A stretch of DNA of 64,000 bases from Parahoeflea alexandrii (GTDB lineage Bacteria > Pseudomonadota > Alphaproteobacteria > Rhizobiales > Rhizobiaceae): assembly GCF_024105735.1 (NCBI RefSeq), contig NZ_JAAAML010000002.1, positions 1 to 64,000 on the forward strand, given 5' to 3'. A model generated the notes under the pieces. It ran no database searches and had not been told where the DNA came from. It saw nothing but the letters and a program-made list of their open reading frames with translations. Of this stretch, positions 60,890-61,988 are shown piece after piece; position 1 is the first letter of the stretch; every line of letters begins with the position of its first letter. Made by a program: the position numbers and the translations under genes.

Positions 60890-60979
60890 CACGCGACTTC
60901 CGATAAAGGCCTGCGGTCCTTTGGGTGAGCCTTGTTTCCGGCTCGGCCCGTCCGCTGGCGAAGAGATAATAGGTGCAAA

Positions 60980-61276
60980 ATGTCACGCAGCTGTGAATTG
61001 ACCGGCAAGGCTGTACAGTCCGGTAACAATGTCAGCCACGCCAACAACCGGACCCGTCGCCGGTTTCTGCCGAACCTGTGCAATGTTACGCTGATCTCCG
61101 ATGCTCTCGGCCAGCGCTACCGTCTGCGCATTTCCGCCAACGCCCTGCGCACTGTCGAGCATCGCGGTGGCCTCGACGCATTCCTGGCCAAGGCCAAGGA
61201 CGCCGAGCTTTCGATGCGCGCACGCCTGCTCAAGCGCCAGATCGCCAAGAAGCTCGAAGAAAAAGCTGCAGCCTGA
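60980..61276 (+). CDS. rpmB: 50S ribosomal protein L28
   Basis: Large-subunit ribosomal protein of 98 residues, the longer alphaproteobacterial form. It begins with [34 protein letters not shown], and the C-terminal helix ([21 protein letters not shown]) is the alphaproteobacterial extension. The CXXC zinc ligands of some L28 types are absent. AGGT lies upstream of the ATG. The gene is followed by a strong terminator and then by the riboswitch. Confidence 0.96.
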
Positions 61277-61302
61277 ATCAAGGCGTAGCCTTACAGCGTG
61301 AT

Positions 61303-61331
61303 GGCGGGCTTCTGGCCCGCCTTCGTTTTTT
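61303..61331 (+). terminator. Rho-independent terminator after rpmB
   Basis: GGCGGGC (61303-61309) pairs with GCCCGCC (61315-61321) around a five-base loop, followed by TTCGTTTTTT. It ends four bases before the riboswitch begins. Confidence 0.88.
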
Positions 61332-61334
61332 CCA

Positions 61335-61365
61335 CTGGTGGCATCAACCCAGGATAAAAAAATGC
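61335..61365 (+). ncRNA. preQ1-I riboswitch (type II-like), translational
   Basis: Stem P1 CUGG (61335-61338) pairs with CCAG (61349-61352). The ten-base loop UGGCAUCAAC ends in the C (61348) expected to pair with preQ1 and agrees with the known Thermoanaerobacter tengcongensis aptamer loop in seven of ten positions. Nine bases of A-rich tail (GAUAAAAAA, 61353-61361) have exactly the known length. Then AUGC (61362-61365) pairs with GCAU (61341-61344) in the loop as pseudoknot P2. P2 covers the start codon of the transporter gene and P1 includes its AGG ribosome site, so ligand binding should block translation. It precedes a queuosine-precursor transporter, the expected target. Confidence 0.82.
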
Positions 61366-61988
61366 GAATGATCCCTTCTGTCTTGCCGTTCATGGCCTTC
61401 ATGGCCGCCATCGTCGTGGCATCGAACTTCCTGGTTCAGTTCCCGGTCGATTACAGCATCGGTGCGCTCAATCTCGCCGATCTTCTGACCTGGGGTGCCT
61501 TCACCTATCCGGTCGCGTTCCTGATCACCGACCTTGCCAATCGCCGCTTCGGCCCGGCCACGGCGCGTCTCGTGGTATTCTGCGGCTTCGTCATCGCCGT
61601 CGCCCTGTCGATCTGGCTTGCGACGCCGCGCATCGCCATCGCCTCGGGATCGGCTTTCCTGCTGGCGCAGCTTCTCGACGTTTCGGTTTTCGACCGTCTG
61701 CGCAACCGGGTCTGGTGGCTGCCTCCGCTGGTCTCGACAGTCATCGGCTCCAGCCTCGACACGCTTGTCTTCTTCGGTCTCGCTTTCTCGCAGACAGCCA
61801 ACATCATCGGCGCCGGCGACGCGTTCGCCAGTGAAGCGGCTCCGCTGCTGGGTCTGTTTGCCATGGAAGCGCCGCGCTGGATCTCGTGGGCACTGGGTGA
61901 CCTCGCCGTCAAGCTGATCGTCGGACTGTCGATGCTGTTGCCCTACGGCATGCTGATGCCGGTGCTGGCCCCACAGGGCCGTGCCTGA
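61362..61988 (+). CDS. yhhQ: Queuosine precursor transporter (YhhQ family)
   Basis: Six-helix inner-membrane transporter of 208 residues of the VUT/YhhQ family, which imports preQ0/preQ1 for queuosine synthesis. The opening FMAAIVVASNFLVQFPV, NLADLLTWGAFTYPVAFLITDLANRRFG near residues 36-63 and SSLDTLVFFGLAFS are typical. The ATG at 61362 has AGGAU upstream; a second ATG at 61368 is possible, but the riboswitch pseudoknot covers the first. No promoter is obvious between the rpmB terminator and this gene, so expression may depend on read-through from rpmB or a promoter inside it. Confidence 0.92.
   Translation: MRMIPSVLPFMAFMAAIVVASNFLVQFPVDYSIGALNLADLLTWGAFTYPVAFLITDLANRRFGPATARLVVFCGFVIAVALSIWLATPRIAIASGSAFLLAQLLDVSVFDRLRNRVWWLPPLVSTVIGSSLDTLVFFGLAFSQTANIIGAGDAFASEAAPLLGLFAMEAPRWISWALGDLAVKLIVGLSMLLPYGMLMPVLAPQGRA

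Follow-up and report, generated by a model that had tools for sequence, protein, structure and literature searches.

Class I preQ1 riboswitches (preQ1-I) are already known ahead of yhhQ, a gene for a queuosine precursor transporter, in the form of the Escherichia coli type III aptamer. The K-12 yhhQ leader (L072:5176-5211) reads AUUGGG-UUCCCUCAC-CCCAAU-GGUUAAUC-AAAAAGG, and its linker GGUUAAUC is the one printed in PMC10622847 for a wild-type 36-mer that is described there as binding preQ1, and from which a crystallised 30-mer was derived. In the crystal, P2 is composed of U11-A28, C10-G29 and C9-G30, the specificity base is C14, A27 contacts preQ1 and is engaged by U7, and C8 is part of a ceiling triple (PMC10622847). 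Type III is described as confined almost exclusively to Pseudomonadota, where it is placed in gammaproteobacteria (PMC11625349, PMC10622847).

The window, a 64,000-nucleotide stretch of the Parahoeflea alexandrii genome, carries on its forward strand (61335-61365) the 31-letter element CUGG-UGGCAUCAAC-CCAG-GAUAAAAAA-AUGC, placed at the start of yhhQ. A sequence-only reading of the window had described a P1 stem CUGG/CCAG, a ten-base loop ending in C, a nine-base tail and an AUGC-GCAU pairing in front of a transporter gene, and each of these can be located: P1 pairs 61335-61338 with 61349-61352, the 10-nt loop UGGCAUCAAC occupies 61339-61348 (most relatives have 9 nt) and closes with the putative preQ1 specificity cytosine at 61348, and the A-rich L3 tail GAUAAAAAA spans 61353-61361 and, if it behaves as in the known structures, should occupy the minor groove of P1. 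The putative 5' strand of P2 is GCAU (61341-61344), complementary to AUGC (61362-61365), which is the initiator codon together with the first base of codon 2. A Shine-Dalgarno-like AGGA (61351-61354) has its first two bases within P1 and the AUG 7 nt downstream. The open reading frame that starts at this AUG (61362-61988, forward strand, 208 aa) scores 101.4 bits against TIGR00697, the NCBIfam queuosine precursor transporter model with a curated cut-off of 50.95 bits, and is thus yhhQ (QPTR).

A template scan (4-bp P1; loop of 9-11 bases with U first, C last and CAU at the P2 place; tail of 8-10 bases with at least 6 A; AUG) returned one match on the forward strand of the window, none on the reverse strand, and none on the forward strands of 200 first-order Markov random windows having the window's dinucleotide make-up. 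A looser pattern matched once across the 4.9-Mb genome and not at all in the reversed control. The upstream neighbour, outside the switch, is rpmB for ribosomal protein L28 (60980-61276, forward strand; TIGR00009, 85.5 bits), followed just before the element by a putative intrinsic terminator on the same strand (61303-61332, with a stem at 61303-61321 and then a U tract) that was found by a consensus scan for which 0.5 matches are expected by chance. No sigma-70-like promoter was found by consensus scan in 60900-61400. In a nested fold the U tract of this terminator pairs with the A tract of the element (61327-61361), a possible competing structure in read-through transcripts. The yhhQ frame also contains a GTG within P1 and the loop (61338-61361), replaced by GTT in UUCC-type relatives.

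Comparison with the E. coli aptamer is most direct through a sister form that occurs in the family of the window, the UUCC form, with loop UUCCAUCAC and tail AAAAAAUG. The sister loop differs from the E. coli loop by one base (C to A, 8 of 9 loop bases shared), and this change is matched in the tail by AAUG in place of AAGG, a compensation that supports the preQ1-I reading. Counterparts are found here for E. coli U6, U11-A28, C9-G30, A27 and C14, with C10-G29 replaced by A10-U29; in E. coli numbering P2 would therefore join U11 to the A of AUG, A10 to its U and C9 to its G, to which the window adds G8-C. Common to both systems are the yhhQ gene, the H-type pseudoknot, the first loop U, the final AC and the poly-A L3. 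They differ in what P2 pairs, which is the Shine-Dalgarno sequence AAGG in E. coli and here the AAUG with the start codon in its place, in the length of L3 (9 nt here versus 12 by the same count) and, for the window itself, in the loop (UGGCAUCAAC versus UUCCCUCAC), where G stands at positions 7 and 8 instead of the U7 and C8 of the E. coli structure. Of the type III loop features (UU start, AC end, pyrimidine-rich), the window loop has the AC end and starts with UG.

When the phylum was scanned with the loop and tail positions of the central P2 pair both left free, 44 rows in 43 of 398 genomes were obtained, compared with 21 matches in the reversed control (counted from the table). In the window's family this pair is A/U at all 10 places, each of which opens a YhhQ ORF; C/G is found at 28 other places, located at yhhQ, and a mixed pair was not seen at yhhQ. 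At the C/G places the distance from the end of AAGG to the first aligned codon is 0-18 bases, mostly 5-9, as for a Shine-Dalgarno sequence. One further row (G1040) repeats a place already read, the rows of G817 and G879 fell outside the yhhQ check, and three rows without yhhQ nearby (L281, L306, L308) were read as chance.

The sequence-only reading had assigned the element to the Thermoanaerobacter tengcongensis type. The preQ1-I fold behind that label is supported, and the label itself fits less well, since by gene and sister-loop sequence the element stands nearest, among experimentally known relatives, to the E. coli type III aptamer. Seven of ten bases are identical between the window loop and what we take to be the T. 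tengcongensis type II loop. Type II also shares with the element a 10-nt loop, an AC before the 3' strand of P1 and a 9-nt L3, but its P2 has two canonical pairs in four steps, compared with four here, on AUGC, and includes only the first two Shine-Dalgarno bases (PMC11625349, PMC10622847). SAM-II, ahead of metA, is likewise a small pseudoknot leader of alphaproteobacteria, with a different gene and sequence (PMC1273637).

The Rfam covariance search that had been proposed as a check gave no support: neither a scan of the element region nor a search of the whole genome with RF00522, the Rfam model for class I preQ1 riboswitches, returned a preQ1 match at E<=10, so that the element falls short of that model's gathering cut-off. 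We give this miss little weight because the E. coli type III leader (L072:5176-5211) is also without a match at E<=10 in Rfam 15. Rfam thus seems to be without a type III preQ1-I model, and its present preQ1 model is blind to a validated riboswitch subtype.

Type III was reportedly defined by McCown in 2014. Our search of the literature on preQ1 riboswitches, yhhQ or queuosine precursor transport, and Rhizobiales, which covered its sources in part, found no description of such an element; the type III-defining paper could hold an alphaproteobacterial example. The main texts of a 2024 review (PMC11625349) and of the 2023 structure paper (PMC10622847) do not contain the term 'start codon', and the main text of a paper on alphaproteobacterial leader RNAs (PMC1273637) contains neither 'queuosine' nor 'COG1738'. 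Judged by sequence, the novelty would lie in a P2 formed on the initiator AUG, the preQ1-I class as such being known already, including type III at E. coli yhhQ.

A protein search covering the P. alexandrii genome together with 100 relatives detected yhhQ in 81 of the 101 genomes. The window's family accounts for 59 of these, and leaving out one locus that is cut by a contig end (L013) gives 58 loci with a complete 5' end, 56 of which carry the element at the yhhQ start: 48 were detected by a CTGG-loop-CCAG-A-tract-ATG pattern with the loop free, seven were read afterwards, and one (G022) has P1 CCGG/CCGG. Two of the 56 (L064, L074) have an out-of-frame AUG. The exceptions are L049, with no element at yhhQ, and L069, with a remnant only. 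In other families of the order yhhQ was matched in 22 genomes, and none of the 18 loci fetched carries the element, which was seen in a single family and not order-wide. Each of the 20 bases upstream of the element holds at most 0.7 bit, so that the element is conserved between diverged flanks. The decayed remnant CTGGTGCTCAAAAAATG that stands ahead of yhhQ in L069 belongs to a 1.1-Mb genome (G023).

A covariance model (R1) was built from 41 family loci and run within the family only, where it matches 266 of 297 genomes at E<=1.5e-5. At E<=0.01 the count is 271, of which the five added (0.002-0.0096) include four that are not real elements; the other, G229 (L134), was recognised as an element by eye, for a total of 267 of 297. 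With the exception of L134, R1 matches at E 0.002-0.9 are not at yhhQ and were not taken as elements; by eye several of these weak matches look like a gene we take to be infB. A class-wide pattern for the UUCC type, which is blind to GG loops, gave 8 matches in 385 genomes and 8 in the reversed control; no yhhQ lies in the 8 loci, which were attributed to chance.

A pattern scan of named genomes gave at least 119 loci that carry the element, and among those listed its AUG opens an in-frame YhhQ in 117 of 119; the remaining two are truncated at the end of a contig or locus. Rhizobium, Agrobacterium, Sinorhizobium, Mesorhizobium, Brucella, Bartonella, Aurantimonas, Hoeflea and others are represented among the loci listed, the closest YhhQ of which is from an uncultured Hoeflea (82%). 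From the names of the element-bearing genomes, the carrier family is probably Rhizobiaceae in the GTDB sense; two loci among those listed bear labels seemingly outside it (a Bauldia MAG and a Rhodobacteraceae MAG). One genome (G322) has two yhhQ copies (L091 and L136), each with its own element, for which 4% contamination is a possible cause.

The features expected of class I are widely kept. A short P1 with G on the 5' side of the closing pair occurs in 56 of 58 family loci (the patterns themselves require this G), and the loop starts with U and retains its final C in 48 of 48 elements detected with the loop unconstrained. An A-rich L3 with A directly before P2 is found in the window and the family loci, where the pattern demands this A, and an A tract is present in all 48 loop-unconstrained elements and in the whole of the covariation set described below, although both patterns require at least 4-5 A. 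For the covariation set, a pattern (loop T[GT][GC]CAT, limited P1 letters, A tract, ATG) was applied to the fetched family loci and gave 220 elements; six of these, lacking a readable in-frame YhhQ, were excluded (L064 and L151, which are one locus, L074, L134, and L203 and L220, cut by ends). The 214 that remain represent 207 distinct proteins, or 198 that are distinct over the first 150 residues. In these 198 loci the specificity C is preceded by A in 176, by C in 14 and by U in 8, and loop positions 7-8 are GG or GC in 115 and UC otherwise, the UUCC-type loci (83 of 198) being those with a UU start.

The loop covaries with codon 2. A GGCAU loop faces AUGC in 105 of 105 loci and a GCCAU loop faces AUGG in 10 of 10, so that the fourth P2 pair is G-C or C-G in step with codon 2; the dropped L064, L074, L134 and L203 likewise pair GCCAU with AUGG. 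Behind the UUCCAU loop, AUG is followed by A in 47, C in 22 and U in 14 of the 83 loci and never by G (0/83), as though selection in this loop type disfavoured a C8-G31 pair. By these counts, which come from pattern-derived loci and not from alignment A1, the covariation of the putative aptamer loop extends into the coding sequence, to the first base of codon 2. P1 is CTGG/CCAG in 196 of the 198 loci, CCGG/CCGG in one and CTAG/CTAG in one (the pattern allowed only such P1 letters), and both exceptions are compensatory, a U-A to C-G exchange in G022 and a G-C to A-U exchange in G254, each in a single genome. The covariation in P2 and P1 that had been proposed as a check on orthologues is thus present in both stems. 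The base directly after P1 is G in 197 of the 198 in-frame loci; the resulting triplet is AGG in 196 of them and, in G022, GGG.

On a FastTree phylogeny of 203 YhhQ proteins, from which the first six residues had been removed, the loop type switches at least 11 times. A tree-based test that compared codon 2 with loop type found four well-supported independent pairs and none opposite, with a median p of 0.125 and significance out of reach at this number. Automatic scoring of 41 sequences found 92% of cells paired, compared with 16-46% in slid structures, a count that is one C-G too high because alignment A1 places the AUG of L039 and L045 one base off. The shuffled mean was 90.3%, with 22 of 500 shuffles as high as 92%, the covariation score was reached by 47 of 500 shuffles and the number of pair types by all 500. 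The automatic pair count is modest because the AUG cannot vary.

In three genomes (L064/L151 in G056, L074 in G040 and L134 in G229) the element is GCCAU...AUGG and its AUG is one base (+1) out of the YhhQ frame, with an in-frame AUG 7, 13 and 13 bases further downstream, respectively. The G after P1 is replaced in all three and the upstream Shine-Dalgarno AGG is lost, the linkers being CCC, CCU and CGACACC. From its sequence, the out-of-frame AUGGA looks like a Shine-Dalgarno sequence that can act inside P2, as in E. coli, and the three loci look like intermediates on a path, in either direction, between Shine-Dalgarno and start-codon platforms. Sequencing error is less likely, given the same +1 shift and AGG loss in three separate genomes. 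In L064 and L134 there may be an in-frame yhhQ start further upstream.

Taken together, the element sequence, its conservation and placement at the yhhQ start, the covariation and the positional match to the E. coli type III aptamer point to a minimal translational OFF preQ1-I riboswitch with the initiator AUG held in P2, a reading to which we assign a probability of about 0.85; from the same observations we infer the ligand, its role in closing the fold, and repression. At low preQ1 the weak 4-bp P1 hairpin would leave AGGA and AUG to the 30S subunit, and the importer would be made. At high preQ1 the ligand would pair with the last loop cytosine (61348) beneath a ceiling to which the pair of U61344 and the A of AUG contributes, and would stabilise the H-type pseudoknot, in which P1 would hold the first half of AGGA and P2 the start codon together with the base that follows it; initiation would then stop and uptake would fall. 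The hairpins calculated in a nested fold, which carries little weight with P2 outside the model, are weak (-3.5 kcal/mol in the window, -2.1 in the UUCC form and -4.8 in E. coli), which would fit a switch that needs its ligand to close. We also lean towards the view that the initiator codon is a structural part of the pocket, with the A of AUG in the ceiling pair and the preceding A reading the ligand, which would place the start codon and the first base of codon 2 under aptamer selection family-wide and would make the out-of-frame AUGGA genomes living intermediates of a platform sliding between Shine-Dalgarno and start codon.

The ligand might instead act mainly through P1, by hiding AGGA, with the AUG pairing secondary. 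The position of AGG partly within P1 and the near-constant G after P1 (197/198) are in keeping with this, but the UUCC, GGC and GCC loops are all complementary to AUG and the GG and GC loops extend that complementarity into codon 2, and we regard it as unlikely. A somewhat smaller chance is given to the same fold and off-switch sensing another queuosine-pathway base, preQ0 or queuine, in the window's GG-loop form. Near the pocket two bases differ, positions 7-8 being GG or GC and not UC in 115 of 198 loci, and YhhQ is described as carrying preQ0 as well as preQ1, and that of Bartonella henselae also queuine at high concentration (PMC11570991). Against this, there is no change in the first U, the last C or the A that precedes P2, and the interchange of GG, GC and UC loops at the same gene at least 11 times would call for repeated changes of ligand.

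An almost invariant P1 (196/198) is also what a sequence-read site would have, such as a translational operator in which a protein or sRNA reads the loop and start site without metabolite sensing. The codon-2 covariation and the P1 exchanges indicate pairing inside the mRNA, however, and the sister loop is one base from a validated preQ1 aptamer ahead of the orthologous gene, which makes an operator quite improbable. An accidental hairpin in an A-rich leader has nothing in its favour beyond the small size of the element, and with no match in 200 random windows, the element in 56 of 58 family loci, at most 0.7 bit at each of the 20 upstream bases, and the covariation also opposed to it, chance is close to negligible.

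If the preQ1-I reading with a start-codon P2 is correct, aptamer, Shine-Dalgarno sequence, start codon and part of codon 2 would be contained in 31 bases, a very compact switch that constrains the second residue of YhhQ. Locking of the Shine-Dalgarno sequence in E. coli-like bacteria and of the AUG here would then form a natural pair for comparing repression, and preQ1-I riboswitches would be extended to relatives of Rhizobium, among them Sinorhizobium meliloti. In the genome of the window, rated 100% complete, queA and tgt are adjacent (G000:C1:1815904-1818080), QueC has sub-cut-off matches only and QueF-II has no match. It is a probable queuosine-precursor salvager on this gene content, and with Tgt and QueA present and QueC and QueF-II not found, uptake may be its source of precursor. 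The queC and queF mutants of S. meliloti 1021 are described as rescued by 300 nM preQ1, and queF, queC and tgt mutants as defective in symbiosis (PMC3568095). In S. meliloti strain 4H41 (L194), yhhQ carries the element.
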